DNA of 17,854 bases from the NCBI GenBank assembly GCA_903879995.1, contig CAIRNW010000009.1, positions 1 to 17,854 of the forward strand, read 5' to 3'. Below the pieces are notes generated by a model. The model saw only the letters and a list, made by a program, of their open reading frames with translations, ran no database searches and had not been told where the DNA came from. Both the position numbers and the translations under genes were made by a program. Positions 1-17,854 of this stretch are shown here, one piece after another. This DNA is from an uncultured Bacteroidota bacterium (lineage in GTDB: Bacteria > Bacteroidota > Bacteroidia > Chitinophagales > Chitinophagaceae). Numbering within the stretch: position 1 is the first letter of the stretch; each line of letters starts with the position of its first letter.

Positions 1-141
1 TCTGGGACTGAGCCACCAGAGAGGGTGGGGATACCCAGGAGGGGGGATCTAGGGGGTGCTATTTAACGTATCCCTGTTCTATGGATAATATGACTGTGGC
101 AAAGCCATCCATCAACACATGAAGGCTTGTGATGACTGATT
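1..141. repeat. Left copy of a perfect 141-bp terminal inverted repeat
   Basis: Bases 1-141 are the exact reverse complement of 17714-17854, checked base by base. The match breaks at position 142 (g, where the other copy would give t). The outer 60 bp hold 40 G or C by hand count, against 24 of 60 in the next line. The inner part encodes the last 26 codons of the small minus-strand gene at 59-292. Because the match runs to the very end of the window, the repeat may continue outward, so 141 bp is a minimum. Confidence 0.97.
2..56. other. GC-rich nested hairpin and G-tract cluster at the left end
   Basis: Two nested stems can be read. The outer is CTGGG (2-6) with CCCAG (34-38), the inner is CCACC (13-17) with GGTGG (24-28) around the loop AGAGAG, with unpaired internal segments on both sides. 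Overlapping this, the plus strand has four G-tracts (23-25, 27-30, 41-46, 52-56) separated by 1, 10 and 5 bases, a loose G-quadruplex pattern. No T-run follows, so it is not a standard terminator. Its function is unknown. A recombination or end-processing site is possible. Confidence 0.55.
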
Positions 142-292
142 GTTCCAGTTCATGACGATTGCTTGATTCGTCACTCTCCATCAGCTCAATATTGGTTTTG
201 ATCGTATCGAGGAGCATCTGAGATACTTCCAAATGGAACATCAACTCATCAGTATTTGTAAATGGCACATATTTTACTTCCTGATTGCTCAT
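59..292 (-). CDS. Small hypothetical protein with its 3' end inside the inverted repeat
   Basis: A 77-residue protein I do not recognise. It looks soluble and mostly helical, with no signal peptide or membrane segment. The ATG at 292 lies 32 bp downstream of a TAGATTTG element (325-332), which supports expression, and it is divergent from the gene at 381. The last 26 codons lie in the left inverted repeat and recur at 17716-17796, where no start is present and an in-frame TAA comes just before. The repeat boundary therefore cuts this gene, so either the gene arose by fusion onto the repeat or the right copy is a truncated relic. Confidence 0.6.
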   Translation of the reverse strand: MSNQEVKYVPFTNTDELMFHLEVSQMLLDTIKTNIELMESDESSNRHELEQSVITSLHVLMDGFATVILSIEQGYVK

Positions 293-324
293 CCAACAAA
301 AATTAATGAAAAAAATTTAAACTG

Positions 325-332
325 CAAATCTA
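325..332 (-). promoter_or_regulatory. Probable -7 element of a Bacteroidota-type promoter for the 59-292 gene
   Basis: On the minus strand these bases read TAGATTTG, an exact match to the TAnnTTTG -7 consensus known from Bacteroides. It lies 32 bp upstream of the ATG at 292. I do not see a TTG at the usual distance upstream, so this is only half a promoter. Confidence 0.4.
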
Positions 333-380
333 GAAAATGATCCTTTTGCGTTCCTACTCACTATTTATAATAAAATAATC

Positions 381-785
381 ATGAGCACGGATAACGTCAC
401 CTCAAATTCAAACCAGCCAGATCAAAGTCTTACTGGGTTAAGCCAACCACCAAACAAGACCAGGAAAAAGCGATACCAGGTAACTGAACAACAATTCCAG
501 GCTGTCCTGGAAAGGAAAATTGAAACTCAGCTCAGGGAATCATTATCCTTCAATTCAATTGAGGAAAAGGCAGCATTTCTGAAACCTGGCAACATTGTAA
601 CATTTAAGCATAAGCTACCAGGTTTTCCCAAAGGGCAAATAGCCATTGCCAAGGTTGAAAGAAACCAATCGGGAGCCATAAAATTAATCAATCCATTCGG
701 AACCGAATCCCCTTGGTATGCCTCTGAACATGAGCTTATCGAAGCTATTGACTGGGAGTGGATGCAACAAAACATTATCAACTAA
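381..785 (+). CDS. Hypothetical protein, first gene of the left plus-strand operon
   Basis: A 134-residue protein I cannot assign to a family. Residues 1-30 are polar, rich in S, N, Q and P, and end in a basic patch (KTRKKR near 27-32). A likely helical stretch follows (about 35-65), then a compact part with a beta-like run around FKHKLPGFPKGQIAIAKV and the segment GTESPWYASEHELIEAIDWEW. It has no signal peptide or membrane segment. The ATG follows an A/T-rich leader without a clear Shine-Dalgarno site. The TAA at 783-785 is one base before the ATG at 787, so the two genes are very likely co-transcribed. The basic N-terminus would fit nucleic-acid binding, but that is a guess. Confidence 0.7.
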   Translation: MSTDNVTSNSNQPDQSLTGLSQPPNKTRKKRYQVTEQQFQAVLERKIETQLRESLSFNSIEEKAAFLKPGNIVTFKHKLPGFPKGQIAIAKVERNQSGAIKLINPFGTESPWYASEHELIEAIDWEWMQQNIIN

Positions 786-786
786 T

Positions 787-1662
787 ATGAGATTACACAA
801 CCAAGAATTAAACAACCTGGCAGTTTACACAGGTGTTCGATACGATGCGCTGAAGCGATTTATCAGGAAGTACAACTTGGATGTTGCCAAGTTGGAGCGC
901 AACGTGAAAAAATTTAAGAACGTAAGGAAAGACCTGGCAGCAGCCGTCTCTGGATATGAAAACAATGATCTTGCCCAGGGATTTGCTCAGGAATACGGGC
1001 TCGATGAAAGCAGACGTGCTGGGGAATTTTTCACCTCCAAACATGGTAAAACAATCCTAAACCAGTTAAAAAGGAACGGAAAGGAGTTTAACCGTGATGT
1101 GGTACTTCAATATTTCGACAAGCTGAACACCGATGATTATAAATGGGCTCGAATCATGGATTTTATTGCAGCAGATTTAGGGTTGAATGTCAATGCTTAT
1201 GAAACCTTTCAGGATCAGGCAAATGATATGGTAAAGACCATAGAAATCCTGTATGAAGCCTACAAAGCCATGAATAACGGGAAAACAGTGATTGCCAAGA
1301 AAACCATCAATGAAATGGTTGACAAGGTTGTTGAGGAAGAAATAACTGAATATAATGAAAGAGCATCCCTAAAAAGACTTGTCATAGATATGACCCAATT
1401 CGAAGCGTTGCTTAATCATGTATTGAACCCACACAACACTAAGGTAACAATAAACAGTGATGATAATGCAGACAGCTACACCTTTGAGGTTAATACAGAT
1501 AAAATGAAAATGTTCCTTGATTTTATTAAAACCTTACCTACACTTAAGGTAATTCAACTAAGGAAGGATGGGAATACACTGTATGTAACTGTCATTAATT
1601 CGGGGAGATTTATTGAATGGGTTCCATTGGTAACCTTCTACAAGGAACAGATTAAGATATGA
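787..1662 (+). CDS. Hypothetical 291-residue protein between the 134-residue gene and a phage-type methyltransferase
   Basis: The frame is open from an ATG at 718, but that would overlap the previous gene by 68 bases and add a low-complexity leader. I chose the ATG at 787, one base after the upstream stop. The product has 291 residues: a basic helical N-terminal region (KRFIRKYNLDVAKLERNVKK, about 23-42), a middle helical region with many charged residues, and a C-terminal third (about 220-291) that looks alpha/beta, with strands such as KVTINSD and TLYVTVIN. I recognise no family. Its last four bases (ATGA, 1659-1662) overlap the start of the methyltransferase, implying translational coupling. 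Confidence 0.75.
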   Translation: MRLHNQELNNLAVYTGVRYDALKRFIRKYNLDVAKLERNVKKFKNVRKDLAAAVSGYENNDLAQGFAQEYGLDESRRAGEFFTSKHGKTILNQLKRNGKEFNRDVVLQYFDKLNTDDYKWARIMDFIAADLGLNVNAYETFQDQANDMVKTIEILYEAYKAMNNGKTVIAKKTINEMVDKVVEEEITEYNERASLKRLVIDMTQFEALLNHVLNPHNTKVTINSDDNADSYTFEVNTDKMKMFLDFIKTLPTLKVIQLRKDGNTLYVTVINSGRFIEWVPLVTFYKEQIKI

Positions 1663-2150
1663 ACGTAAAATATGAAACACTTTATGGTAGATCCAGCGGA
1701 AAGGATGAATGGTTAACACCACCACCTTTGATTGAAGCTCTGGGTGAGTTTGATCTTGATCCTTGTGCTCCCGCTAAACGACCTTGGGATATGGCTAAAA
1801 ACCATTACACAATTGAAGATAATGGTCTGGAGAAAGATTGGAAGGGAAGGGTTTGGCTGAACCCTCCCTATGGCACTTTTACCAAATACTGGATTGAGAA
1901 GGCAGCAAAACATGGCAATTGCATTGCACTGATCTTCAACCGTTCCGATACCAGATTATTTCATGAGCAAGTTTTCCCGAACGCCTTTGCAGTACTTTAC
2001 CTGAAGGGGCGTGTAAAATTTCACCATGTTAATGGCAAACAAGCTGATTCAAGTGGAGCACCATCTGTTCTGGTAGCTTTTGATAATAACAATTCCGAAA
2101 GCCTCAAACATTCAGGGCTTGAAGGATTCTTTATACGTTTAAAGGAATAA
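1659..2150 (+). CDS. Phage-type DNA N6-adenine methyltransferase (Dam-like)
   Basis: A 163-residue protein matching the phage N-6-adenine-methyltransferase family (PF05869 type) by motif. It shows EWLTPP (17-22), FDLDPCA (31-37), the catalytic motif IV NPPY (68-71) and a later GAPSVLVAF strand. Such enzymes transfer a methyl group from S-adenosylmethionine to adenine N6 in DNA and are usually orphan methylases of phages and mobile elements, often shielding DNA from restriction. The glycine-rich AdoMet motif is not in classical form, as is usual in this short family. It is the last gene of the left operon, coupled to the gene before it through ATGA and followed by a strong terminator. Its target sequence cannot be read from the protein. 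It is separate from the Mod enzyme of the central block. Confidence 0.9.
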   Translation: MNVKYETLYGRSSGKDEWLTPPPLIEALGEFDLDPCAPAKRPWDMAKNHYTIEDNGLEKDWKGRVWLNPPYGTFTKYWIEKAAKHGNCIALIFNRSDTRLFHEQVFPNAFAVLYLKGRVKFHHVNGKQADSSGAPSVLVAFDNNNSESLKHSGLEGFFIRLKE

Positions 2151-2346: not shown

Positions 2347-2712
2347 TTAGCCCGCATTCATATCAATTACGAAGTAGATAAATTTGTCGGGAATAATACT
2401 AAATTCAATCTTGTGTATTTTAAAAACCACATAGTTTTGTATTTCCACGGACTGAAAAAACTCATCTAACTTATCTGTGAAGTCTGAATACTTGTAATCG
2501 GGATCACTTTCTTTTAAATTATGGAAGTATTCTGTCCAAAGTTGATTTAACTTTTCATCTTTGATGGTTGGTTCATCCCAAAATTCATCAAACCAGTATC
2601 CTCTGAAAGACTGTGCATCTTCATTAACACCATCCTCTTCGGTAGTAATGTATTCACCAGAAACAGGGCAATAGAAATTGTAATGATCAAGATCTAGATT
2701 AATTATTTGCAT
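2347..2712 (-). CDS. Acidic hypothetical protein, last gene of the central defence operon
   Basis: A 121-residue protein I do not recognise. By hand count it has 26 Asp/Glu against 9 Lys/Arg, so it is strongly acidic, and it is rich in aromatic residues (for example GYWFDEFWDEP around 38-48). It has no signal peptide, membrane segment or catalytic motif. It starts at an ATG 11 bases after the stop of the DUF4268 gene and reads the same way, so it probably belongs to the same transcript. The acidic, aromatic composition would suit a small binding partner or a DNA-mimic-like modulator of the restriction enzymes. Nothing in the sequence proves that, and an ordinary immunity or accessory protein is equally possible. 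Confidence 0.65.
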   Translation of the reverse strand: MQIINLDLDHYNFYCPVSGEYITTEEDGVNEDAQSFRGYWFDEFWDEPTIKDEKLNQLWTEYFHNLKESDPDYKYSDFTDKLDEFFQSVEIQNYVVFKIHKIEFSIIPDKFIYFVIDMNAG

Positions 2713-2723: not shown

Positions 2724-3839
2724 TTAATCCCGCTGTACTTTTTCCCAGTAGGGATATAAAGCTTTGTAAAAATCTCTCATTGCATCACAGTACCAATCTG
2801 CAATTTGATCCCACGATTGCTCTTCAGCAAAACGCCCATGAAGGGAATCCACAACTTGTTTTGGCATCTCGAATTTTATCCTGGAAGCCTTTTTGTTTTC
2901 TAATCGCTCCCACTCAATAGTACCGTTATGCTTTGCTTGTATCTCATCTTTGTATTTAGCCATAGCATCGATCAATGCTTTGTCGGAATCATCTGAAAAG
3001 TACAATTCCACACGATAAGTGAATCTGCCAATGCAGAAAGCAAACTTGCCTCTGCCTTTCCAGAATCCGATACTATAATGAGGTTTTGAACCAACTCTAT
3101 CCAAGTAATCCAATTTGTTTTCCGCCAGCTTTGATTTAAGTACATTCCAGAACTTTAATAACTGAAGTTCGGATTGTTCCACGGTTTTGCTCTTTTCCTG
3201 CTCTTCCTTTTCTTTCTCCTTGGCATCAATCATGAACTCTTTGGTTTCTGGCAACGGAATGATTTGCTCCACTTGTAAAAACATATCGTCACCCATTGAA
3301 TATGGTGTTGCCCTGAAGCACTGTACTTGAATATCATGTTTCAATAACCACAATACCGTTGAAGTAACCTCTTTACGATAATTGTTGGCTACAAAAATGA
3401 TGCGTTGATCATTACGATTTAGCAGTAGTTCATCTTCGTTTCGCTCTAGGAAGTCCAATAGGTTTTGTTTAGCATCGTCACCTTGTTGCCATCTATCCAA
3501 ATAATCCTGGTAGATTTTAACTAATTGGCTTGTTGTTAGAGTTGAACAGTAAGAAGCATACTTCATTGCTTGCCAAACCACGTTTCTACCTGTATCATCC
3601 AGTTTGTTTTCGATTATGACCAACCCACCATCTTTATCAATTGCCAACAGATCCAATCGCTCATTGGTATCGTTAAAGCCATCGAACTCTTTTTGGATGA
3701 TCAGGAGCTCTTCTCCCAGCATTTCAGGGTTCTTTGCTATCCATTCCTGCAAATGTTCACGTTCTCGTATCTGAAGCTCTTTAAATAGCTTCTGTTCGAG
3801 TTTAACTACGTTGTTATTGGATTTATTAATCTTATACAT
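2724..3839 (-). CDS. PD-(D/E)xK nuclease-like protein with a C-terminal DUF4268 domain
   Basis: A 371-residue protein. The N-terminal half carries a nuclease-type signature: ERLDLLAID (Asp63), then a strand VIIENK (Glu77-x-Lys79), then VVWQAMKYAS (Gln90), the order expected for a PD-(D/E)xK fold like those in NucS-type and restriction proteins. A charged linker (KEKEKEEQEKSK, about 207-218) leads to a C-terminal domain (about 223-366) with HYSIGFWKGRGKFAFCI and EEQSWDQIADWYCDAMRDFY, which I recognise as DUF4268. The ATG at 3839 is one base after the Res stop, so the gene is very likely co-expressed with Res. It may be a second nuclease, or a structural subunit, of the restriction system. Cytoplasmic. 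The family call rests on pattern memory. Confidence 0.8.
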   Translation of the reverse strand: MYKINKSNNNVVKLEQKLFKELQIREREHLQEWIAKNPEMLGEELLIIQKEFDGFNDTNERLDLLAIDKDGGLVIIENKLDDTGRNVVWQAMKYASYCSTLTTSQLVKIYQDYLDRWQQGDDAKQNLLDFLERNEDELLLNRNDQRIIFVANNYRKEVTSTVLWLLKHDIQVQCFRATPYSMGDDMFLQVEQIIPLPETKEFMIDAKEKEKEEQEKSKTVEQSELQLLKFWNVLKSKLAENKLDYLDRVGSKPHYSIGFWKGRGKFAFCIGRFTYRVELYFSDDSDKALIDAMAKYKDEIQAKHNGTIEWERLENKKASRIKFEMPKQVVDSLHGRFAEEQSWDQIADWYCDAMRDFYKALYPYWEKVQRD

Positions 3840-3840: not shown

Positions 3841-6800
3841 TTATGCCATTATTTTATTAACCACATCCTCCATATCTCTTGCAACTATCATCTTTAAATC
3901 TTGACCTGATTTACGAGATAGCTCTTCAAAGTGTTTAATTCCACAGTCAATTTTGCCTTTTTCAGACGGGCGCAGAAAGTCAACACCAAGTGTTCCCTTG
4001 CTCTCTACTACAAAGTATAATTTCTCTTCGCTATCCTTCTCAAACAGTATTGCCCAATCAGGATTGTATGATCCTAGTGGGGTTTCAATTTTAAACCACC
4101 CTGGCAATTTTGCATAGACCTTGATGTTCTCGTTTCGCTCAAACTCTTTGGCGAGATTCGATTCGATTGCACTGTCGTGAACTACATATTCAAATGGAGA
4201 CTTGCTACTCTCTACCATGTTGCTCTTGAGATAACCCACCAGCTCTTCATTTTCGAACAACTCTTGGCTGTAATACTCATGTTCACCAATTTTACTGTAA
4301 ACGATTCCGTCAACGATGTGCAAGCGCATCTGTTCATTGATGATCTCAATGCATCCTTCAATGAATCGCTGGGGGTTGATCTTGAAATATCTTAGGTTCA
4401 GGCAACCTTGTAAAATTCGAACAATTGATTTTCGGGTGAGGTTGGTTTCATTTTGTAGGTAAGTAACAATATCAGGCAGTACCTGTGCGTCCTGGTCAAC
4501 TTGACCATAGGCTGTTTGCTCATCGCCAACTCTATCTACTCCACCCTTAGTAATATCTAGTTTGCTCTTTGTGTAAACCAATTTGCCTTTGCTTATCACT
4601 AAGCGTTCGTTAATGTTTTTGATACAAGCCTCAATTAGTTTATTGGCATCAAAATCTACTGAGTAAGTTGTTTTGTACTTTATTCGATTCCACAAGTTTT
4701 CAAAGTCTGGGCTAAGCAATACTTCCTTACGAACTTTAATAACCTGCTTGTCCTCGTTCTTTTTAATTTCCAGTTTGCCAGCAACCTGTTTTAAAGTCTC
4801 TATTACCTGCGATTTAATGTGGATAGGCATTTCTTCAGGCAAATCCACTTCACCCGTTCTCAGGTCGTTTTTAAGCAGATCCTGAACCTTTCCACGTGCA
4901 TCGATATAACCCTTTAATGCAAAGTAGCCAAATAATTGCTCTGACTGTTCTTGCCCGTAAAATACTGGGTCATTGCCATCCATTTCAACCGTGATGCTAC
5001 TAAAGCTATGTGGTTGTAATAAACCAAACACAATACCCGTTTCTTCCTCCATTTCTTTTTGGAAGTTCTTTACAAACTCTTCATACGATTCGTTTGCCAT
5101 TACGGTTAATGTGTTGGTGTCAAATCCATGAACACGATCACCATCTTGGTTAACACAAAGCCGTAAACCCCGACCAATTTCTTGCCTACGTGAAATATCT
5201 GTTCCACCAGAATCTTTTAAGGTACAAATCTGAAATACGTTAGGATTATCCCAACCTTCACGAAGTGCTGTATGAGAGAAGATGAAACGCAACTTGGAGT
5301 CAAAGCTCAGTAACTTTTCTTTATCCTTCATGATGAGGTTATAAGTGTCCTCATCATTTTTGGTTTTACCAGTTGTGTCCTTATAATATTCGTACTTATC
5401 CTTGGTGTTGCTAGCCTTTGGTTTCTTATCTAATGCAAAGTAGCCGTTGTGTATTTGGTTTACTTCTTCATTAATGTCACGAACGCCTTCGAACAAGTTC
5501 CTATAACGTGGTCGTGAAATGATTTTCTTGTATTCTTCCTCAAATAAACGAGCATAGACCCCGTTGCTCGGATTGCCATCCGTATCGTATTCACGGTAGT
5601 TACTAACCTTATCAATGAAGAATAAGCTCAGTACCTTAATACCTTTCGGATTCAGTATCAATTCCTTGTTTAAGTGCTCCTCAATAGTTTTGGCAATTTG
5701 AGCACGTTTAATGGCTAAATCATCTGTGCCACCGATACTCATGTTCAAACGGATTAGCACATCATTGGTGAAGTCTATACACTCATTGTCTGTGTCGGTG
5801 TAAATATCTCTTACCATGAAGCCATCATATTGCTCCAGTTTGGTTAGTTGAAGCAAGTCATCTCCAGGCTTAACGTCTTTCTTCTCTCTCTTTGATTTAC
5901 CATCTCTGCCTTTGACGTCCAACTCTAATTTTGCTTTAAACCCATTTTTATTGGAAACCTGCAAGAGCTTTATATACGCTCCTGCTGAGGCAGCACCATC
6001 AACTTTTATTGAGGCTACTTCAATTTGCTTAACCAATTGTTTGTTGTATGCATCAACTGCATCCAATTTGTAAAGCAGGTTCACTTTCTCTTTGTGTGTT
6101 GCAGAGTAGCGAACAATAGCCAATGGTTTAAGATTGTTCACAGACTTCTTACCCAATGGAGTATTTAACACACGTTGGGGTTCATCTACAATAACAAACG
6201 GTCTGGTATCTTGGATTAACGAAATAGGTTTGTAGCCCAACTTGTCGTTATAATTGAGTAATATTCTGTTGGTATTGCTTGAATCATCATCCACATCTTT
6301 GGCAAATGCTTGAATGTTGATGACCATAATCTGGAGTTGATCACTAGTGGCGAAATCCCTAATCTCATTTAGACGGGAACTATCGTAAACAAAGTACTTA
6401 TAGTTTACATTGGCATAGTGCTCCTTCAAATGGGTTTCAGTAATCTGTAAACTCTTGTAAACACCTTCTTTAATTGGAATAGTAGGTACTACAATAATGA
6501 ATTTACTGAATCCATATTGACGGTGCATTTCCATGATGGTTTTGAGGTACACATAAGTTTTACCTGTACCCGTTTCCATCTCCACGCTCAAGTCTAAAGC
6601 ATTACGGTCTATCTCTCCTTGAACGGATGGTTTTAAGCCGTTGCGCAGTTGAATTTTCTGGATATTCTCCAGTATCTGTCCTTCTGTTAATTGCAGTTTA
6701 TTGGCATAACCCAACAGATTTGTACTCTCTTGATTAGCAAACAAGCCGTTTTTAGCCAGGAAATCTGGCGAATACACCGTGAAGTTAGAGTTGCAGGTTT

Positions 6801-6879
6801 CTTGCCCCTTAAACACGTCTACAATAGATTCTATTGCATCTTGTTGGTAGGATAAACTGCTATCAAATTTTATTTTCAT
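3841..6879 (-). CDS. res: Type III-like restriction subunit Res (SF2 helicase plus nuclease)
   Basis: A 1012-residue protein of the usual size for Res subunits. Helicase motifs run in order: Walker A METGTGKT (101-108), motif II DEPQ (232-235), motif III YSATH (258-262), motif V ALREGWDNP (538-546) and motif VI RRQEIGRGLRL (564-574). The C-terminus carries a nuclease core, NPDW (Asp941) and VVESKG (Glu959-x-Lys961), of the PD-(D/E)xK type. In the type III family Res works with Mod: ATP hydrolysis drives communication along DNA from unmodified sites, then the nuclease cuts. All the residues one would look for are present, so the enzyme looks intact. It lies 19 bases downstream of mod. Confidence 0.93.
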   Translation of the reverse strand: MKIKFDSSLSYQQDAIESIVDVFKGQETCNSNFTVYSPDFLAKNGLFANQESTNLLGYANKLQLTEGQILENIQKIQLRNGLKPSVQGEIDRNALDLSVEMETGTGKTYVYLKTIMEMHRQYGFSKFIIVVPTIPIKEGVYKSLQITETHLKEHYANVNYKYFVYDSSRLNEIRDFATSDQLQIMVINIQAFAKDVDDDSSNTNRILLNYNDKLGYKPISLIQDTRPFVIVDEPQRVLNTPLGKKSVNNLKPLAIVRYSATHKEKVNLLYKLDAVDAYNKQLVKQIEVASIKVDGAASAGAYIKLLQVSNKNGFKAKLELDVKGRDGKSKREKKDVKPGDDLLQLTKLEQYDGFMVRDIYTDTDNECIDFTNDVLIRLNMSIGGTDDLAIKRAQIAKTIEEHLNKELILNPKGIKVLSLFFIDKVSNYREYDTDGNPSNGVYARLFEEEYKKIISRPRYRNLFEGVRDINEEVNQIHNGYFALDKKPKASNTKDKYEYYKDTTGKTKNDEDTYNLIMKDKEKLLSFDSKLRFIFSHTALREGWDNPNVFQICTLKDSGGTDISRRQEIGRGLRLCVNQDGDRVHGFDTNTLTVMANESYEEFVKNFQKEMEEETGIVFGLLQPHSFSSITVEMDGNDPVFYGQEQSEQLFGYFALKGYIDARGKVQDLLKNDLRTGEVDLPEEMPIHIKSQVIETLKQVAGKLEIKKNEDKQVIKVRKEVLLSPDFENLWNRIKYKTTYSVDFDANKLIEACIKNINERLVISKGKLVYTKSKLDITKGGVDRVGDEQTAYGQVDQDAQVLPDIVTYLQNETNLTRKSIVRILQGCLNLRYFKINPQRFIEGCIEIINEQMRLHIVDGIVYSKIGEHEYYSQELFENEELVGYLKSNMVESSKSPFEYVVHDSAIESNLAKEFERNENIKVYAKLPGWFKIETPLGSYNPDWAILFEKDSEEKLYFVVESKGTLGVDFLRPSEKGKIDCGIKHFEELSRKSGQDLKMIVARDMEDVVNKIMA

Positions 6880-6898: not shown

Positions 6899-8833
6899 TT
6901 AAATGGTATTTACTTCAAGTATTCCGAAGCGTTTCAAGATTTGCATGCTGTTGGTCTTCTCCACATCTGTAAAGCCAGTATCCTTAAAAATCACTTTAGA
7001 TGTAGCTGGTTGTTGCTCTTCCTTCCACTTGCCAATACCCTCTGCTACTGCTGTAGTAATGTTATCACCCAAACATATAAACAATGCTCCCATTCCAATA
7101 TTGAATACTTGCTTATCACCAATTTCCTTTTGCTCAATAGGCATGGTTAAATCCAAGCCATATTTAAGCAGAATTTCATAAAGCACATCCTCTTCGGTGC
7201 GGTTTTCTTTGATATTGCTTCCTGCATTGAATAGGTTATCCTCCAAAGCATCTGGATTGCCATCCCAAGCTCTAATGTTGGAACTATCCAATTTAAATGC
7301 CCTAAAACCAACGTCTATTGTTTTACCCTCTTTGCTGAATAAATCTTCTTTAAACTCTGATATTATCTTTTTACCAGCTCTTCGTATTCGTTCTTTGGTA
7401 ATTTCGGAAATGGTTCTATAACCTACTTTATATGCTTCGCTTTCTTTATCAAGCAGCTCTGGCAATTGTACACAAATGTATTTTCGAGCACCCCCATCCT
7501 CTGAATTTAATTGCATTGTTGCATGGGCGGTCGTCCCTGATCCAGCAAAAAAATCTAAAACATGATCTTCTGAATCTGTTCCCATCTCGACAACTTTGGC
7601 TATCATCTCCATTGACTTTGGGAAATCAAAGTATTTTTTCCCCTCAAATAATTCTTTGACTAACAGAGTCCCCTTCTCTGAATTGTCTTCTTTATCTGCC
7701 CAAACTGATCTAGCCATTTTGGTGCTTTTGCGATATTTTTCAACGATCATAAAACCACCATCTGTCATTTTTTTTGCTGCAATTTCCTTGTTTAGATTTT
7801 CTTTTGCTTTTTCCTTCCCCCATCTCCAAACAGTATTGAAGCCTTGCGACTCTTTGGGGTACAATTCAATAAAATTTGATTTCTTTTCTAAAGATATCTC
7901 ATGTAAATTATTATCTAGTTGACTATCTGGATTAATGTAAAATGGATAATATAAGTTTGGACGGTTCTCTTTGTTAAAGGCGATATTTCGGTTCCTCAAC
8001 TCTCTTAACTCATAGCCTCCAATAGCATCCTTAAAAGGAAATTCTTTATTCGGATTCTTTAAATCATTCAGTTCTGTATTTTGGCTCTTTCCATATACTA
8101 TTATATATTCATGCATTTGTGCTATACCACCGTAATCTCTACCTCTTGGGTTATTTACTATCGTAATTTGTCCGATGAAATTATCTTGTCCAAATATTTC
8201 ATCACATAGTTTTTTGAGATTAGATACCTCATTGTCATCAATCGAAATGAATATAGCACCATTTTCAGTCATTAAGTTACGAGCTAATTTTAGCCTCGGA
8301 TACATCATGCATAACCAATTACTATGGTATCGCCCATCGCTTTCGCTATTTGTGTTAATTCGATTTCCGTCCTCGTCAACTTGTCCCGTTATTGATAGAT
8401 AGTTGCCAAGGTTATCACTGTAATTGTCCTTGTATACAAAGTCCTTACCAGTATTATATGGTGGATCGATGTAAATCAACTTGATTCTATTTGCATAACT
8501 TTTTTGAAGTAGTTTTAATACTTCCAAGTTATCGCCTTCAATAAAAATGTTTTGCGTGGTATCCCAATCTTTGCTGCTTGTTTTGTCGGGGCGCAAGGTT
8601 GCTGTACTAGGTTTATTGGCTTCACGTCTTGCCATGCTTTTGCCAGCCCATGTAAAACGGTAATATTCTTCCTCTGTTTCTATTTCATCACCAAGTAAGG
8701 CTTGGAGTTCCTTAATGTCAATCTTACCTTCCTTAACAATTGTTGGGAATAAGGTTTTAAGCGTTTCTATATTCTGAGCAACAAAATCGGTGCTTTGGCT
8801 CATTGGGTGTCCTTTAACTATCTTTTCCATCAT
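6899..8833 (-). CDS. mod: Type III-like modification subunit Mod (N6-adenine or N4-cytosine methyltransferase)
   Basis: A 644-residue site-specific DNA methyltransferase. The catalytic motif IV DPPYNTG (123-129) comes before the AdoMet-binding motif I FAGSGT (429-434), the beta-class order of type III Mod proteins. The stretch between about 215 and 385 is the expected target-recognition region, and the C-terminal part (about 480-644) is Mod-specific. Mod methylates its recognition site and guides Res. The start is one of two neighbouring ATGs at 8833 and 8830. The upstream gene's stop overlaps them as ATGA, which favours 8833 over the internal Met at residue 11. The recognition region is AT-richer than the 5' part (about 31% against 38% GC over 420 bases each, by hand) and contains an A8 tract (7768-7775). 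Confidence 0.93.
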   Translation of the reverse strand: MMEKIVKGHPMSQSTDFVAQNIETLKTLFPTIVKEGKIDIKELQALLGDEIETEEEYYRFTWAGKSMARREANKPSTATLRPDKTSSKDWDTTQNIFIEGDNLEVLKLLQKSYANRIKLIYIDPPYNTGKDFVYKDNYSDNLGNYLSITGQVDEDGNRINTNSESDGRYHSNWLCMMYPRLKLARNLMTENGAIFISIDDNEVSNLKKLCDEIFGQDNFIGQITIVNNPRGRDYGGIAQMHEYIIVYGKSQNTELNDLKNPNKEFPFKDAIGGYELRELRNRNIAFNKENRPNLYYPFYINPDSQLDNNLHEISLEKKSNFIELYPKESQGFNTVWRWGKEKAKENLNKEIAAKKMTDGGFMIVEKYRKSTKMARSVWADKEDNSEKGTLLVKELFEGKKYFDFPKSMEMIAKVVEMGTDSEDHVLDFFAGSGTTAHATMQLNSEDGGARKYICVQLPELLDKESEAYKVGYRTISEITKERIRRAGKKIISEFKEDLFSKEGKTIDVGFRAFKLDSSNIRAWDGNPDALEDNLFNAGSNIKENRTEEDVLYEILLKYGLDLTMPIEQKEIGDKQVFNIGMGALFICLGDNITTAVAEGIGKWKEEQQPATSKVIFKDTGFTDVEKTNSMQILKRFGILEVNTI

Positions 8834-9606: not shown

Positions 9607-12600
9607 TATTTGATGATCAAGTAACTTACTAATTCAAACGCATCAGAATGCTGTGCTTTGCTCATTTTGGTTCCACCTGCAAAAGCCAGCGTGTCTAAAC
9701 CTAGTTCATCATCTACACCTTTGATATGGGTTAAAGCCGTTTGAAGCAGAGAAGTATATGTACCCATTTGCTTACCAGCTTTGGTCTCTTTATTAAATGA
9801 ACTTATAAGTGAGGCAAGCACTTCGTGTTGACCCAGGCAAAGTTTCTTGTACAGATCCAAGGTTTTCTTTGGGTTACTTGCTGGAACAAAAACGTCACCG
9901 TTGGCATTGATGTAACATAAGCTGTACGGATGGGTAGCACTATATGTGTTGGTATCCATCAATGCTCCATTCAAGTCATTGAAACAGAATATGACACCAG
10001 GGGTGGCTTCATCTGTATTGGTTGAAGTAATGGCGTAAATGCCTTTAGGGGCTAGTTCAAAATGTTCACGCTCCTCGTGGCTCAATCGCTCCGCATCAAT
10101 TTTAAAGTCATTAAAGGTTAAGTCGGTAATACTGATACCACCTTCAATATCCTCCAAATCCAACACTTTGCTTTGCATTTGTTTGAGTTGTCGTTTACGG
10201 TAATCTAAATCACCGTAGCTCACACTTGGTTCTTCAATAATGTTATCATCTCCCGTAGCAGATACATCCAGGATTTGCATACGTCCTTTCACACGACCAA
10301 TTAAATCAATGTAGGTGTCCAACTCCAAGTTCGGGAAGAAATTTACTAATTGAATCTTATCATTAATGGAACCAATACGGTCGATACGTCCAAATCGCTG
10401 AACAATGCGAACAGGATTCCAGTGTATGTCGTAATTAACCAAATAATCGCAATCTTGTAGGTTTTGTCCTTCTGAAATGCAATCCGTACAGATCAATAAA
10501 TCAATCTCACCCTTGCTATCGGGATAAATCAGATCTCGTTTTTTCGACAGGGGGGAGAAGTTAATCAGGATGTGCCCTAAATCGGGTTTACAGTCTCTTA
10601 AATTCGTTTTGTTGGCATCGCCACCCGTTACCATAGCTGATTTGATTCCAAGCTCCCCAAGAGCCCAGGAGCTCAAATTTTCGTAGAGGTACTTAACCGT
10701 GTCAGCAAATGCTGAAAAGACGATAACCTTCTTGTTTCCATCGTTAAGATTGTTTTCAACTTTGCTTTGAATCAGATTCTTCAGCTCTTGCAATTTTGCA
10801 TCCCTGGTTTCATCAATTACCTTGGTTTGAGCCAACAGGTTTTCCAACCTGCGTTTGTCATCCATCAAATCTTCCTTGCAACGTATCAAGTCCATATCCT
10901 GGAGTAAAACTTTTACTTTACCACCAGTTAATAGGTCATCAAGCAAAGTATCATCTGTATCAATATCTGTAATCTCCAGCTCCTCGTTAAAATATTCAGC
11001 TCTGCTTGCTACTTCTATCTTGTTGAGTAATCCATCTATTTGACGAAGTAAGCCCTCCAACGTTAACCTGAATGAGTGAACTGAACTTTCAAGTCGCTTT
11101 AACAGATTTACTCGCATCAAGTGAATCAAACTGCTTTCACGTTCAATCTGTTTGAATATGCTACCCTTTGAAGTCGTGATGTCATATTTTGCTTCGTAGG
11201 AACTTCGCTTATCATCACGCACATAAGAAAGTGGTGAATAGAAGCCGAGGTTCAATGCATTGAGTTCGTCATTCACCTTGTCCATTGCCTTCAATGAACC
11301 ATTCTTGTCGAAGTCGGTGTATTTGTTTATCGGTGCTAATCGGTCAGGGAATTTGCCAATATCGTTTACATCGTAATACTTCTCGATGTGCTTACGGGAT
11401 CTGGCAATAGTAAGTAAATCTAACAACTTGAAGTAAGAACCATCCAAGCCGTTGATCAAACTTTCCCTGCTCGATGTTGAGCCGTTGTTCGATTTTAACC
11501 AAGCGTTGAACTTGGCTTGAGCTTTCCTTAATGTTTGTTCAATGCTCGCTATCCCATGAGCGGCAAGTGCATCGTCTTGTTGTTCGGTAATAAACGCAAT
11601 CTGATTTTTAATGTCATTCATCCTCGTGTTGACAGGAGTTGCAGAAAGCATTAACACTTTTGTTTTAACTCCAGATTTGATGATGTCATTCATCAAACGT
11701 TGGTAACGAGTAATGGTATTTCTCCTTGGATCGTTGTTTCTGAAATTGTGTGATTCATCGATAACAACCAGATCATAGTTGCCCCAGTTGATGGATTCCA
11801 GGTTGATGTTTCCTGAATAACCGCCAGTCCTGGAAAGATCGGTGTGGTTTAAAACATCAAAGTTTAATCTGTCTTTACTCAGTATGTTTTGTACATCGTT
11901 TAGAGAATATACTAGCCAGTTATCACGCAACTTTTTTGGTGCTAGTACCAAAACTCTGTCGTTACGCATTTGGTAATACTTAATGACTGCAAGAGCTTCA
12001 AAGGTTTTACCAAGTCCGACAGAATCTGCTATAATACACCCACCGTAAGTCTCAATTTTATCAATTGCTCCGAGTACTGCATCTTTCTGAAAGTTGAATA
12101 GGTACTTCCATATTTCAGTTTGTTTAAACCCAATTTTATTAATGCGCTGTTCGTTTTCCTCGTTGATTGTTGTGTTCTTGAAGAGATGATAAAGCGTGTA
12201 TTTATATATGAACTCAGGGCTGTTGTCTTCAAAGGCTTCTTTTACTTTTTTTAGCAGATCACTTTTTAAGTCCTTTGGGCTAATCGACCAGAACTGCTCA
12301 AACAGCTGAAGAAATTGTCCTCCCTGATCCTCGAATTGAGATAGAACAATTGGCATTGGACTTGGCACTGTTCCTAAAGTTACAGTATTCAAATCCTGAG
12401 GGACAATCGAAAAACAATGCGTTTTATCGGGATTCTTGATCAGGATAAATTTTTGTCCTCCAACATTGCCAGCTCTAATCTGGAATTTGTTCTCCAACAA
12501 CTGGTATGTGTTACTAGCCTTATGGGAAGAATTGAGGTCAAAGTACAAGGAAAACTCCTTTAAATCGTATGCAAAACGAGAATCATTGGATGGTTCTGTG

Positions 12601-12764
12601 TCCAGAATCATTTTAACACCCTTCGACTGGCTTAATTCGCTGGATAATTCAAACAAAGCTGGAATAGTAACATATCCAGTTGCAATAAAAATCTCGGAAT
12701 CCTGGTTAATCAGGTTCTGTACCTCGCTTGCGAGCTTTATATCTTGGTTATTTATTAATTGCAT
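9606..12764 (-). CDS. SNF2-type helicase of the extended restriction locus
   Basis: A 1052-residue SF2 ATPase of the SNF2/RapA-like group. Motifs: DSVGLGKT (247-254), DESH (336-339), LSATPVNT (373-380), TDCISEGQNLQ (760-770) and QRFGRIDRIG (789-798). A long charged insert (about 480-675) lies between the two RecA-like halves. Residues 1-160 precede the helicase and resemble, in position and strand pattern (IFIATGYVT), the phospholipase D-like domain found at the start of related defence helicases, but I see no intact HxK signature, so it would be degenerate. Proteins of this kind translocate on duplex DNA. Here it likely moves or remodels DNA for the Mod/Res machinery. Its ATG overlaps the regulator stop (TGATG, 12762-12766). 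Confidence 0.9.
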   Translation of the reverse strand: MQLINNQDIKLASEVQNLINQDSEIFIATGYVTIPALFELSSELSQSKGVKMILDTEPSNDSRFAYDLKEFSLYFDLNSSHKASNTYQLLENKFQIRAGNVGGQKFILIKNPDKTHCFSIVPQDLNTVTLGTVPSPMPIVLSQFEDQGGQFLQLFEQFWSISPKDLKSDLLKKVKEAFEDNSPEFIYKYTLYHLFKNTTINEENEQRINKIGFKQTEIWKYLFNFQKDAVLGAIDKIETYGGCIIADSVGLGKTFEALAVIKYYQMRNDRVLVLAPKKLRDNWLVYSLNDVQNILSKDRLNFDVLNHTDLSRTGGYSGNINLESINWGNYDLVVIDESHNFRNNDPRRNTITRYQRLMNDIIKSGVKTKVLMLSATPVNTRMNDIKNQIAFITEQQDDALAAHGIASIEQTLRKAQAKFNAWLKSNNGSTSSRESLINGLDGSYFKLLDLLTIARSRKHIEKYYDVNDIGKFPDRLAPINKYTDFDKNGSLKAMDKVNDELNALNLGFYSPLSYVRDDKRSSYEAKYDITTSKGSIFKQIERESSLIHLMRVNLLKRLESSVHSFRLTLEGLLRQIDGLLNKIEVASRAEYFNEELEITDIDTDDTLLDDLLTGGKVKVLLQDMDLIRCKEDLMDDKRRLENLLAQTKVIDETRDAKLQELKNLIQSKVENNLNDGNKKVIVFSAFADTVKYLYENLSSWALGELGIKSAMVTGGDANKTNLRDCKPDLGHILINFSPLSKKRDLIYPDSKGEIDLLICTDCISEGQNLQDCDYLVNYDIHWNPVRIVQRFGRIDRIGSINDKIQLVNFFPNLELDTYIDLIGRVKGRMQILDVSATGDDNIIEEPSVSYGDLDYRKRQLKQMQSKVLDLEDIEGGISITDLTFNDFKIDAERLSHEEREHFELAPKGIYAITSTNTDEATPGVIFCFNDLNGALMDTNTYSATHPYSLCYINANGDVFVPASNPKKTLDLYKKLCLGQHEVLASLISSFNKETKAGKQMGTYTSLLQTALTHIKGVDDELGLDTLAFAGGTKMSKAQHSDAFELVSYLIIK

Positions 12765-12964
12765 CAGATAGTATTCTTCTTGGAAACAATTAAATCAGTC
12801 ACATCACAGCCAATTGCCTCTGCAATCTTGTTTAGTTTGGAAAGAGGGGGTTGAACGGTGTTACTACACCATTGTGAAACAGAAGACTTAGTAACCCCAA
12901 GGGCTTCAGCCAACTGTATCTGCTTCATTCCTTTCTCATTAAGAACTTGATGTATCCGATTCAT
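12764..12964 (-). CDS. Short Xre-type helix-turn-helix regulator
   Basis: A 66-residue DNA-binding protein consisting almost only of a Cro/CI-type HTH: MKQIQLAEALGVTKSSVSQW, followed by PPLSKLNKIAEAIGCDVTDLI. The frame is open back to a TTG at 13006, but the ATG at 12964 gives the normal domain start, so I chose it. It sits at the head of the helicase-Mod-Res genes and overlaps the helicase start as TGATG. In restriction loci such proteins (C proteins) commonly time expression so that methylation precedes cutting. A similar role is inferred here. A dyad at 13001-13017, 36 bases upstream of the ATG, is a candidate binding site. Confidence 0.88.
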   Translation of the reverse strand: MNRIHQVLNEKGMKQIQLAEALGVTKSSVSQWCSNTVQPPLSKLNKIAEAIGCDVTDLIVSKKNTI

Positions 12965-13000
12965 CGTTAACTTGATTATGGGTGAAATATAGTGATAAAA

Positions 13001-13017
13001 GTTCAATTTTAATGAAC
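13001..13017. promoter_or_regulatory. Candidate operator for the Xre-type regulator
   Basis: GTTCAATTTTAATGAAC has arms GTTCA and TGAAC around a 7-base AT centre, the size and symmetry expected of a dimeric Cro-like site. It overlaps the stop codon of the primase-helicase gene (13009-13011) and lies upstream of the regulator ATG at 12964. A near-consensus TATATTTC (minus strand, 12984-12991) lies between them, so an internal promoter under autoregulation is plausible. Confidence 0.45.
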
Positions 13018-15402
13018 ATTGCGTATTTCATTAATAATGGAAAAGTTCAAAGGCAGATTGGAGTAAAGCTCCACAATGCAATCATTCCTTAGTGGCCGAG
13101 CCCGACCGACAGCCTGAATAAGTTCCGCTTCAATGAGTTCTAGCTGAATTTGTTGCATCTCCCTGGTTTGGTATGTTGTGAAGCAGAACCTAAAGTCACC
13201 GTGCTCAATTAAGCGCACTTTCATACTGTTTTCCTGGTTGGGATTAAGACCAACAGCAAATGCGATAAGACGGTAAACCAAATCATTATAGTGCGGTGTT
13301 CCAATAACAGCAATGTCAGAGCCATTCAACACGTCATAACCTAGAACATTGTGAAAATGCATATTCAAATCTTCTTGAAAAAACTTGGCTTTGTTTTTCT
13401 TGAATGTGATGATGGGTATATTTCCCACTCGATCTCTGACATCGTTTATCAAATCCTCGGTTAAAGAGGTTCTGCTGTACGAATAATCCGTGTGCTGATA
13501 TACTTTGCCTACTAACTCGACATTGGTCAAATCCAACACATCAATCCTTCCAGGATACATTCTTTCATACAAATGAACCTGAGCCGTGGCTGACATGATT
13601 AGGTGTTTTTTCTCGTTGCTTAACTCCCTCTTAACTACATAGCTTATTTTCTTAATATTTCGAGAGTCTTTAACAAAAGCAACCGAACCAAGGAATTTAA
13701 CCACATTAGTCTTGGTGGGGTGTTTTGCAATTGTCTCGCTTAGCGTATTCCTGTCCACAAAAACTGATGGCATTGGGTTAACCAATCCAGGTTTTGCGCT
13801 TTTAATGCGCTCAATCAGTTCATTTATCTGGATCCCCTCTGGCAGGTAAGCATTCAACAAAATGATATCATCAATGTTGGTACTATCAACCGAAAGCAAA
13901 TCCTTTATCGGGTCTTCATCAAAGATTACAGTGGAGTTGTTGGTTCCCCCCAACAGCAACCGTTGATGGGTGGTTAAAAGTGTTGTGGAGACATCACAAG
14001 TATTTTTAACCTCAGTCAAATACTTTTGAGCGAGGACTGCATCCTGAGCATTCGTTCTGGTGTCAATTTTGGCTGCAACGCTTTTGATGATTTTCTGAAC
14101 AGCTTCATTTAGCCCCATCATATAATAATTATCAATTTTTGAGTTAATTACATTATCTGAAAATCTGGGAACCTCGGGTGTGACAACAGACTCTACCTGC
14201 ATTTTGCGATAAACTTCATCTTTTAAATCATGTGTAGGGAAAGCCAGAACATGACCCTCAAGATTGGTTAAATGGGTCGTTTTTCCAAATCCAGTTGGGA
14301 GCTTGAATATGTAAATCTTGTTATCCTTTGCATCAAGAGCTTCCTTGAATTTTTCGTCAAAAATTCTTTGTGCATCATCTAAACTTATTGTATTGGGCTG
14401 TTTAATCCTTTCAATTTTTCCTATGGGTAGTTTAATACCCAAGAGCAAATTTGGGTGATCGAAATCCTCTTGGTAGGGAGAAAATTTATCTAAACCCATG
14501 GGGAAATACTCCATGAGGGAAGCGTAGTCGATAATCCTTGACTTATACTTATCGTAATGGGTGTTCCCTAACCCATTATGTTTTTTTATGGTATCTTTAA
14601 ACAGCTTTTTTCCTCCTTTTAACCAGTGAAGGGCTGTCGCTATTCCGAATAGTTGTTCATGGTAGAGCCATTTTCCCTCCAAGAAATCCTTGAATATTCT
14701 TACTTTTTCTGCTAGTTTTCCAAAATCTACTTTGTTATTTTTTAATTTTCTTAGGTAGGTTAGATAAGCTTGGTACTCATCTGTCTCAAAACGGGTATCC
14801 TTATTGTAATCTAATAGGGATACCCGTCCTGGGACAAATCTGGACTTTCCATGATCTTCCTCCAATATTACAATGCCAATCATTAAGCATAGCTTATAAA
14901 ATGGTATGGGCTTTTCAGTTATCGGGAATGCTTGAGTTCCTCCAAAAAAGATCCTTGCAGCATCGAAACAAGTTGGATCAGATTCTGGGAATACCCTTTT
15001 CAATCCCTCTCTTATTCGTTTGGCTGTTTCGAAGTCTCTTAATTCGTGATCTGTGAGCAATCCAACACGGAATCTGGGAGACTCATCTGTGTTTCGAAAG
15101 GTTGTGTAATAAAAATTGGGCGTGATGCCGAAGTTGTCGAAACGATCCAAGACTTCCTTGATTGCAATCGTGCCATCAAAGTCAAGGTAATATACCTGCT
15201 GAGAAGCCCAGCTCTGATTGTTAATTGTGCATCCAGTATGTAAAGCAGGAGCGATCGTGTAGCTGTTGGGTGGAGCGGAATGTTGAATTAGTTGATAATA
15301 AGTTAATCCTGTTGGTGACATGTTATTTTTAATAGTTGCTACCTCTTTCGTAGATGGTCGACCCTTTAACCTTAAGGGGGCAATTGTCACGTTGTATATC
15401 AT
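13009..15402 (-). CDS. Primase-like (AEP) domain fused to an SF2 helicase
   Basis: A 797-residue protein. The N-terminal region resembles archaeo-eukaryotic primases of plasmids and phages: YYLDFDG (71-77) gives the two metal-binding aspartates Asp74 and Asp76, followed by SPRFRVGLL (108-116) and FDAARIFFGG (146-155). The C-terminal half is an SF2 ATPase with Walker A LPTGFGKTTH (368-377), FDEDP (494-498), MSATAQ (603-608) and QAVGRAR (763-769). Such fusions typically start and unwind DNA during replication of mobile elements. Around residues 99-107 the histidine often seen before the PRFR segment in similar proteins is not evident, so priming activity is uncertain. It is the first gene of the central operon. 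It could be the replication protein of the element or part of the defence system. Confidence 0.75.
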   Translation of the reverse strand: MIYNVTIAPLRLKGRPSTKEVATIKNNMSPTGLTYYQLIQHSAPPNSYTIAPALHTGCTINNQSWASQQVYYLDFDGTIAIKEVLDRFDNFGITPNFYYTTFRNTDESPRFRVGLLTDHELRDFETAKRIREGLKRVFPESDPTCFDAARIFFGGTQAFPITEKPIPFYKLCLMIGIVILEEDHGKSRFVPGRVSLLDYNKDTRFETDEYQAYLTYLRKLKNNKVDFGKLAEKVRIFKDFLEGKWLYHEQLFGIATALHWLKGGKKLFKDTIKKHNGLGNTHYDKYKSRIIDYASLMEYFPMGLDKFSPYQEDFDHPNLLLGIKLPIGKIERIKQPNTISLDDAQRIFDEKFKEALDAKDNKIYIFKLPTGFGKTTHLTNLEGHVLAFPTHDLKDEVYRKMQVESVVTPEVPRFSDNVINSKIDNYYMMGLNEAVQKIIKSVAAKIDTRTNAQDAVLAQKYLTEVKNTCDVSTTLLTTHQRLLLGGTNNSTVIFDEDPIKDLLSVDSTNIDDIILLNAYLPEGIQINELIERIKSAKPGLVNPMPSVFVDRNTLSETIAKHPTKTNVVKFLGSVAFVKDSRNIKKISYVVKRELSNEKKHLIMSATAQVHLYERMYPGRIDVLDLTNVELVGKVYQHTDYSYSRTSLTEDLINDVRDRVGNIPIITFKKNKAKFFQEDLNMHFHNVLGYDVLNGSDIAVIGTPHYNDLVYRLIAFAVGLNPNQENSMKVRLIEHGDFRFCFTTYQTREMQQIQLELIEAELIQAVGRARPLRNDCIVELYSNLPLNFSIINEIRNVH

Positions 15403-15622: not shown

Positions 15623-16543
15623 ATGACAAGAAGCCATTTACATATAGAACATACTGAAGAGTTCAAAGCACTTGAGGGACTTCTGAGGGCACAAAATGAG
15701 CCAGATGGGCTTATGAACCTCATCAGGAACCCACAATTCGAATTCGACCTGAATTTAAGCTCTAGGATGCTGAATTACCACGAGGCAAATGGTTTCATTC
15801 GCTTCCATAGAGAAGGCACAGCTGGGAAACGGAGGTTTTCACTGGTAAATGCCCTAGGATTTCAATTCAGCCTCTATTTGAAGCGAGTGGGGCTAAATAA
15901 TGACGAGATAGCCCAATTCAATGAGGTACTGAATGGAAAAGATGAAAGGGGTATTTCCGACTGGGATTTGGTGGTTTATATAGTAGCTGCGAGCATCGGT
16001 CATGTTGATATTTGGATTAAGCGAACTCTCAATCTTATTCCAGGTACAGGAAAGGGAAGTAAAATAGAACTAACAACTGACGAAAACGAAGATTTCTTCC
16101 ACTTGAGCAAGGAACTCAGAGAGACCTTCTTCAATGGACAAGGAAACATTTTGCTCAGTGGAAAGTCAGCATTATTCCTGCCAAGGTTTGTCTTTGAGGT
16201 TGATAAATTAAGAGATCAACTGGGCTGGGAGAAACTTTCGCCAGATAACTTCAAGTTGGTACAAGAATTTGGAGAAGAAAAGGCTGAAAAATTTATCGAC
16301 TCGAATGCCGTAATGGTGCTAAATCAACTACCACCATCTGAATACACGAAGATCTATGATATCATACACAGGGACGAGAAGGGCAACCATTTCGGGATTG
16401 AGATTAAACCTTTGAAGATTAACCCCAAAACAAGGTTTCGATCTGATAAGCTCACTACCGACAAGGAAGAATTAAAACAAGCGATAGAAGCTGAGTTGAG
16501 ATTCTTACAGAAGATGCTGGAAAAGCTGAATAAGGGAGGCTAA
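15623..16543 (+). CDS. MerR-like regulator with a long uncharacterised C-terminal region
   Basis: A 306-residue protein. Residues about 43-103 resemble the MerR winged-HTH: LSSRMLNYHEANGFI, then GKRRFSLVNALGFQF, then LKRVGLNNDEIAQF, the order of recognition helix, wing and second helix pair. The 42 residues before it and about 200 after it match no sensor domain I know, and there is no conserved cysteine set for metal sensing. The last 35 residues (KEELKQAIEAELRFLQKMLE) look like a coiled coil, a place where MerR proteins usually dimerise. It is the first gene of the right block and has a readable promoter, so it probably controls itself or the divergent operon. The start ATG at 15623 follows AAAAGGAA, a weak ribosome site. 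Confidence 0.65.
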   Translation: MTRSHLHIEHTEEFKALEGLLRAQNEPDGLMNLIRNPQFEFDLNLSSRMLNYHEANGFIRFHREGTAGKRRFSLVNALGFQFSLYLKRVGLNNDEIAQFNEVLNGKDERGISDWDLVVYIVAASIGHVDIWIKRTLNLIPGTGKGSKIELTTDENEDFFHLSKELRETFFNGQGNILLSGKSALFLPRFVFEVDKLRDQLGWEKLSPDNFKLVQEFGEEKAEKFIDSNAVMVLNQLPPSEYTKIYDIIHRDEKGNHFGIEIKPLKINPKTRFRSDKLTTDKEELKQAIEAELRFLQKMLEKLNKGG

Positions 16544-16563
16544 AATCCATGTAAATATCGAAA

Positions 16564-16641
16564 ATGAAAGCAACCATCATGGCATGGGATGGAAAAACTA
16601 TGCCCTCTAAAAAACGTAAAAAATTAAAAAATGAAAAATAA
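16564..16641 (+). CDS. Possible 25-residue lysine-rich peptide
   Basis: A short frame from ATG 16564 to TAA 16641 lies in the 87-base gap after the MerR-like gene and overlaps the next gene by 11 bases in another frame. The product ends in a basic stretch (SKKRKKLKNEK). The overlap would allow coupling, but length and composition are compatible with chance in A-rich DNA. Confidence 0.25.
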   Translation: MKATIMAWDGKTMPSKKRKKLKNEK

Positions 16642-16873: not shown

Positions 16874-16884
16874 ACATTTAAGAT

Positions 16885-17655
16885 ATGAGCAAAACCAAAA
16901 TTGAATGGTCAGACTTGACCTGGAACCCAACAACAGGATGTACAATATGTTCAAAAGGTTGTTTGAACTGCTATGCATTAATATTATCAAAAAGACTCAA
17001 AGCTATGGGTCAATACAAATACAGAAATGAGTTTGAAATTACTGTGCATGAAAGTGAACTTGACCGACCCTACAAATGGAAGAAACCTTTAAGGGTGTTT
17101 GTCAACAGCATGAGCGACCTTTTTCATAAAGATGTTCCTGTGGAGTTCATACAAAAGGTATTCAAAGTGATGAATGATACACCACATATTACCTATCAGA
17201 TTTTAACCAAGCGAGCACACTTACTTTATGAATATGATCAGAAAGGATATCTCAATTGGACGGAAAATATCTGGATGGGCGTATCAGTTGAAAACAAGGA
17301 AGTACTGAAAAGAATAGATTACCTGAGAAAAACAGGAGCAAAAGTTAAGTTCCTTTCCTGTGAACCGTTGCTAGATGATTTGGGGGAATTAAATCTGACT
17401 GGAATTCATCAATGTTTGGTAGGTGGAGAAAGTGGACACGATGCAAGGCCTGTCGAGAAGGGATGGGTTGATAACATCCTGAGACAATGCCGAAAATATG
17501 ATACTGCTTTTTTCTTTAAGCAATGGGGTATGAAGAAGTTTAATCCTGAGCCAACCGACCCAACTATGATTAAGGGGCATATTGAATATTCCAAAGGAGG
17601 TTGCCAGTTGGATGGTCGAATTTACAGGGAGTTTCCTAAAATAAAAGTTGCATAA
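16885..17655 (+). CDS. Phage Gp37/Gp68-like protein (DUF5131 family)
   Basis: A 256-residue protein with the family hallmarks in order: WNPTTGC (13-19), SKGCLNCYA (23-31), RVFVNSMSDLFH, ILTKRAH, WMGVSVEN, KFLSCEPLL, LVGGESGHDARPV and FFFKQWG. The family is found in phages and mobile elements and is thought to have a radical-SAM-like barrel with a cysteine cluster. Its reaction is not established. Cysteines here are Cys19, Cys22, Cys26 and Cys29. The three usual ones fit 19, 26 and 29, and Cys22 is extra and creates a CxxxCxxC (22-26-29) spacing. The usual companion, the three-Cys-motif partner protein, is absent from the window. It is the last gene of the right block, followed by a strong terminator. 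Confidence 0.88.
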   Translation: MSKTKIEWSDLTWNPTTGCTICSKGCLNCYALILSKRLKAMGQYKYRNEFEITVHESELDRPYKWKKPLRVFVNSMSDLFHKDVPVEFIQKVFKVMNDTPHITYQILTKRAHLLYEYDQKGYLNWTENIWMGVSVENKEVLKRIDYLRKTGAKVKFLSCEPLLDDLGELNLTGIHQCLVGGESGHDARPVEKGWVDNILRQCRKYDTAFFFKQWGMKKFNPEPTDPTMIKGHIEYSKGGCQLDGRIYREFPKIKVA

Positions 17656-17673
17656 TGTTTGGTTTTGGTTTTG

Positions 17674-17710
17674 ATCCCCATTGAATTAATTTTCAATGGG
17701 GATTCTTTTT
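17674..17710 (+). terminator. Strong intrinsic terminator of the right block
   Basis: ATCCCCATTGAA (17674-17685) pairs perfectly with TTCAATGGGGAT (17692-17703) around a 6-base loop, then TCTTTTT. It lies 18 bases after the DUF5131 stop and 4 bases before the right inverted repeat, so it would also insulate the repeat from the operon. Confidence 0.88.
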
Positions 17711-17715
17711 AAAAA

Positions 17716-17796
17716 TCAGTCATCACAAGCCTTCATGTGTTGATGGATGGCTTTGCCACAGTCATATTATCCATAGAACAGGGATACGTTAAATAG
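17716..17796 (+). pseudogene. Truncated copy of the 77-residue gene (last 26 codons)
   Basis: The frame SVITSLHVLMDGFATVIL and the rest to the TAG at 17794-17796 is identical to the end of the gene at 59-292. In the same frame a TAA lies two codons before it, so no longer protein can be read here, and the usual start is missing. Confidence 0.75.
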
Positions 17797-17798
17797 CA

Positions 17799-17853
17799 CC
17801 CCCTAGATCCCCCCTCCTGGGTATCCCCACCCTCTCTGGTGGCTCAGTCCCAG
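17799..17853. other. GC-rich nested hairpin and C-tract cluster at the right end
   Basis: Mirror image of 2-56. It has outer stem CTGGG/CCCAG and inner stem CCACC/GGTGG, with the G-tracts on the minus strand. With both copies, the G-rich strand runs 5' to 3' inward from each end of the element. Confidence 0.55.
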
Positions 17854-17854
17854 A

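Follow-up and report, generated by a model that had tools for sequence, protein, structure and literature searches.

Exact 141-bp inverted ends of a Bacteroidota contig with a defence island most likely reflect a k=141 assembly-graph boundary at a longer repeat

Linear replicons with terminal inverted repeats are known, namely those of the Streptomyces and Rhodococcus type. Identical contig ends can also be of an assembler's making: in the passages of the COBRA paper (PMC10914622) that concern MEGAHIT, this assembler breaks at repeats and, in the great majority of simulations, leaves end sequences of maxK length, and a k-list used with it is 21, 29, 39, 59, 79, 99, 119, 141. Here we analysed a window (the whole stretch of DNA under study, 17,854 bp) that is the entire contig C9 of bin G000, a fragmented 2.1-Mb bin (2,102,029 bases in 410 contigs), so that both copies of the repeat described below lie at contig ends.

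In a direct sequence comparison, positions 17714-17854, reversed and complemented, were identical to positions 1-141 without a single mismatch, and the match was broken at position 142, where one side has a G and its counterpart a T. The preliminary description had claimed just this, a perfect 141-bp inverted repeat that closes the window and stops sharply on its inner side, and we confirm both points. A repeat scan (12-base seed, at least 20 nt) scored the end pair as 144 nt at 99% identity, by taking in two agreeing bases past the mismatch, and listed no other inverted repeat in the window. A perfect match of 141 bp is far beyond what chance can account for. Among the readable contigs of the bin, the repeat sequence occurs in these two end copies only (contigs below 3 kb were read as N, which holds for 57 of 57 masked contigs, the longest being 2,993 bases), and inverted ends of at least 15 bp were found in none of the 74 other contigs tested. 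The window has a GC content of 38.5% against 42.0% for the bin and is thus a composition outlier; given this, C9 may be a mobile or a mis-binned contig. The features at and next to the two ends are as follows.

1..141, forward strand: left inverted-repeat copy, a perfect 141-bp match to reversed 17714-17854
59..292, reverse strand: 77-aa gene with its 3' end within the repeat; no Pfam, NCBIfam or PADLOC family
17673..17704, forward strand: terminator-like hairpin of 13 pairs with a T-rich tail
17714..17854, reverse strand: right inverted-repeat copy, holding only the final 26 codons of the 77-aa gene

The two copies are asymmetric: a complete gene ends in the left one, and a fragment of it lies in the right one. 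The inner part of the left copy comprises the last codons of the 77-aa gene, and no open reading frame of at least 25 aa is listed for the outer 58 bp. In a tblastn comparison, residues 51-77 of the 77-aa protein matched positions 17713-17793, with a difference at residue 51. The family of the full-length gene has 22 homologues at E 0.001, 19 of which are exactly 77 aa long. The hairpin lies downstream of the DUF5131 gene and ends about 10 bases before the right copy; the terminator scan returned 11 sites where 12.1 were expected, among which 17673-17704 has the longest stem listed. Because one copy ends a full gene while the other is a fragment behind this hairpin, we read the repeat as a duplication of a segment with the 3' end of the 77-aa gene; a real junction seems to lie at the right inner boundary, and the repeat resembles a partial duplication. 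As single-stranded DNA, the repeat folded no better than shuffled sequences did (z 0.00). One relative of the 77-aa protein, other than the 94% relative discussed below, and one relative of the 291-aa protein encoded further inside (see below) are each listed on a contig of 6,652 bp.

For the length of 141 bp, we compared contig ends across the bin. Of 140 other contigs, 75 were readable (the rest being N), which with C9 gives 76; together with 44 further ends, 195 contig ends entered the comparison, from which all-N contigs and the 3' end of C2 (L004), cut at 20 kb, were left out. Four exact end-to-end dovetails in the range of 20-249 bp were found, of 53, 99, 130, and 141 bp, the last between the 5' ends of C92 and C125, so that an overlap of k=141 recurs between other contigs in one of the four cases. 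Overlaps of 99 and 141 are members of the MEGAHIT k-list as printed in the COBRA paper (PMC10914622), whereas 53 and 130 are absent from that list. One further contig pair has 119 exact bases in common with a one-base overhang and was left out of the clean k overlaps. C9 itself has what marks the boundary of a k=141 unitig, namely a shared end of exactly k followed by a differing base. Eight contig pairs of the bin (C2/C78, C4/C113, C21/C111, C36/C115, C37/C46, C48/C57, C73/C88, and C96/C133) overlap inexactly, over 228-440 bp at 95.9-99.2% identity, which may reflect a mixture of strains in the bin. No unitig continuing outward from the repeat was found among the unmasked contigs of the bin (at least 3 kb), and the neighbours may be unbinned.

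We also simulated k=141 de Bruijn assemblies of random DNA. Linear molecules with inverted repeats of 141, 142, 200, 281, 600, or 2000 bp each yielded a core with inverted ends of 141, as did circles with inverted repeats of 141, 200, 800, or 2000 bp. Inverted ends of exactly 141 on the core were likewise obtained from a flanked insert and from a hairpin-ended molecule whose repeats measured 141 bp or more, and again when the core was present in both orientations with a 300-bp repeat. Repeats of 60, 120, or 140 bp in a linear molecule retained their own size, the contig of a plain circle carried a direct repeat of k, and the single fold-back chimera simulated came out without inverted ends. 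Since all longer simulated repeats gave 141, the exact length sets no more than a lower bound of 141 bp for the real repeat.

We therefore consider it likely, with a probability of roughly 0.8, that C9 is one k=141 de Bruijn unitig produced with MEGAHIT defaults, both ends of which lie in one shared 141-base node. In an element that carries a repeat of 141 bp or more twice, in opposite orientations, both ends of C9 would lead into one graph node, and the assembler would halt at the inner repeat edge on either side and retain k bases; the identity of the assembler and the read support for two real copies are presumed in this account. The length of 141 and the outer ends were most likely set by the assembler, so that the outer ends are probably not biological termini, while the inverted repeat is probably real, measures 141 bp or more, and has real inner edges. 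Against the unitig reading, a length of 141 was seen in only one of the four exact overlaps, with 53 and 130 falling outside the MEGAHIT list; no outward contig was found among the unmasked contigs (those below 3 kb being masked and neighbours perhaps unbinned); and the assembler is a presumed one. On balance, the graph-overlap alternative of the preliminary description, in which k is 141 and a repeat of at least 141 bp extends outward, draws support from the overlaps of 141 and 99 in the bin and from the simulation, with four overlaps making a thin sample.

Between its ends, the window encodes the following proteins.

381..785, forward strand: 134-aa protein, no family
787..1662, forward strand: 291-aa protein of an uncharacterised family, 62 homologues
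1659..2150, forward strand: phage-type adenine methyltransferase (Dam)
2347..2712, reverse strand: 121-aa protein, no family
2724..3839, reverse strand: PDC-S11 candidate defence protein (DUF4268; weak NucS-like stretch)
3841..6879, reverse strand: type III restriction enzyme (Res), REase_III; NCBIfam match under the cut-off
6899..8833, reverse strand: type III DNA methyltransferase (Mod), MTase_III
8830..9606, reverse strand: DUF4391 protein
9606..12764, reverse strand: HKD+Snf2 helicase (PADLOC C3a139)
12764..13006, reverse strand: Cro/CI-type HTH regulator
13009..15402, reverse strand: replication-type protein with a DinG/XPD-like SF2 helicase and an AEP/PrimPol-like part; no Pfam, one PHROG of unknown function
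15623..16543, forward strand: 306-aa protein, divergent from the replication gene; a 27% relative in the same arrangement in L177
16631..16873, forward strand: 80-aa protein, unassigned
16885..17655, forward strand: DUF5131 protein (PADLOC candidates PDC-M41B/M30B)

The neighbouring mod (6899-8833, MTase_III) and res (3841-6879, REase_III) genes identify a type III restriction-modification system. The DUF5131 protein matched PDC-M41B and PDC-M30B strongly, and the NCBI radical SAM mobile pair protein A far under its cut-off. The fold model of the 291-aa protein had low confidence and no PDB match at E 0.001. Nothing encoded in the core, several proteins of which have no family, was recognised as a transposase, integrase, protein-primed polymerase, or telomere resolvase; likewise, Pfam families for protein-primed replication or telomere resolution were absent from the 14 proteins and the 77-aa protein, again with several lacking any family. 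The closest approach to a transposition gene is phrog_296 ("DNA transposition protein"), whose match is confined to the HTH portion of the 80-aa regulator (E 1.6e-4), no transposase family being matched otherwise. A literature search for DUF4391 joined with DUF4268 or type III restriction found none.

The PrimPol/DinG-like fusion has at least 61 protein relatives at E 0.001 among 7,994 candidates scored, none with a precomputed Pfam domain. In loci with relatives of the replication gene (n=62, with up to 10 kb kept on each side), inverted repeats of at least 60 bp occurred in 2 of the 62 (L127 and L139), neither being perfect. In 46 of the 47 loci compared, best-segment identity to the replication protein of the window lay in the range of 23-39%; in the remaining one (L186) it reached 50%, over 83 residues. 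One stretch, L177 8575-21686, has a window-like order, consisting of the divergent gene, the replication gene, an HTH gene, an SNF2 helicase, a methylase, and Res; it lies in a 633-kb Bacteroidetes contig, beside zeta-toxin-like, peptidase, and thioesterase-like genes.

As an exact pattern, the repeat was absent from the viral contigs and genome contigs searched; a near-match search of the whole window against plasmids and phages returned nothing, and neither did a distant-match search of the repeat against 72,556 plasmid and 50,697 phage records. Against 245 genomes, its own included, the repeat matched its own two places and, in each of 5 genomes, a single stretch of 19-31 bp at E 0.01, which is little evidence of anything given about 2.5 such matches expected by chance. 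The 77-aa protein was found in its own genome only among 294 family, 42 genus, and 396 order genomes, and it matched no viral contig, plasmid, or phage. The 291-aa protein was found in its own genome and in one weak match among 345 class genomes; its alignment found only its own genome among 395 phylum genomes, and the protein had no viral-contig match. For the replication protein, 147 genomes gave its own genome and one weak match; used as a single query, it matched none of the viral contigs, and its matches in plasmids and phages were all partial and weak. Its alignment found nothing in a PDB sequence search. No Rfam family matched the window at gathering scores.

What kind of molecule lies behind the unitig is a separate matter. 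We favour a circular or integrated molecule over a linear one, since enzymes that handle linear ends were not recognised. The sub-case that we hold somewhat better than even is that the core is one unique arm of a circular plasmid or a chromosomal island, flanked by inverted repeats of more than 141 bp that are possibly an IS or a duplicated segment. This agrees with the simulated graph. Moreover, relatives of the 291-aa and replication genes are both on a 12,146-bp contig (apparently one and the same, judging by equal size and source); the same two genes span 14.6 kb via the core in the window, which points to a shorter linking path on the 12,146-bp contig. A 94% relative of the 77-aa gene also speaks for this sub-case, the longest contig there being 863,632 bp. 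Against it stand a second arm or flank that was not found in the readable contigs, the lack of a match for the repeat in the 72,556 plasmid and 50,697 phage records, and the lack of any recognised IS family in the core. The other sub-case, which we regard as unlikely, is a linear replicon with terminal repeats of more than 141 bp that were clipped by the graph, the outer piece being a lost short tip or a small contig. The simulation reproduced this picture too, and end-to-end recombination in linear replicons would leave a duplication ending inside a gene, which we counted in its favour; however, no enzyme for linear ends was recognised, and relatives of the replication gene sit on large bacterial contigs, one of which is a complete chromosome (L161). 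That C9 covers almost an entire linear Bacteroidota replicon, with terminal inverted repeats of more than 141 bp, maintenance by a PrimPol-DinG fusion, a type III restriction-modification island, and ends handled by a protein without a family, is likewise a rather doubtful proposition.

Two explanations lie outside the unitig reading. The perfect inverted ends and the replication-type gene in the core would suit a complete linear replicon with true terminal inverted repeats of exactly 141 bp, but 141 is the inferred largest k, the right repeat copy is a gene fragment, and no protein-primed polymerase or telomere resolvase was recognised by Pfam, with several proteins lacking a family; we consider this highly improbable. 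The strict element alternative of the preliminary description, with repeats ending at positions 1 and 17854, finds no support, as it needs a real repeat that equals k by coincidence. A library or assembly chimera as the source of the inverted repeat could draw on the outlying composition of the window and on the eight inexact contig-pair overlaps in the bin; yet the single simulated fold-back chimera lacked inverted ends, and the right copy begins just past a terminator-like hairpin and not at a palindrome, which leaves this explanation improbable.

Under the preferred unitig reading, C9 is probably a section of some larger mobile element that encodes a bacterial defence system. The repeat would probably have arisen by duplication of a segment with the 3' end of the 77-aa gene, in a direction that we infer from the two copies. 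The core would then be a mobile island or replicon that has a PrimPol/helicase-type gene of its own and carries type III restriction-modification genes as cargo, homology being established and activity predicted, and recombination between the copies could invert it. Exact k-long inverted ends resemble those of a complete linear element, and annotation may treat them so; recognising that they most likely stem from the assembly graph helps to avoid a false "complete genome" call and still flags a probable real inverted repeat around a defence-carrying mobile core.

In comparison with known systems, C9 shares with the Streptomyces and Rhodococcus type of linear replicon its perfect inverted ends and a replication-type gene of its own; it differs in that its repeat equals the inferred k and that genes for a terminal protein, a protein-primed polymerase, and a telomere resolvase are unrecognised. 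With the MEGAHIT maxK overlap, as the passages of the COBRA paper (PMC10914622) on it have it, C9 shares exact 141-base end identity, a branch just inside, and a size that recurs in another pair of the bin, whereas it has both ends on one contig and inverted, which makes them one shared node that is not joinable. Among Bacteroidota elements with relatives of the PrimPol/DinG-like gene, integrase/recombinase clusters occur in 21 and 11 of the 62 loci, whereas none was recognised in the window; these elements nevertheless have the same replication-type gene as C9, and L177 has the same gene order as well.
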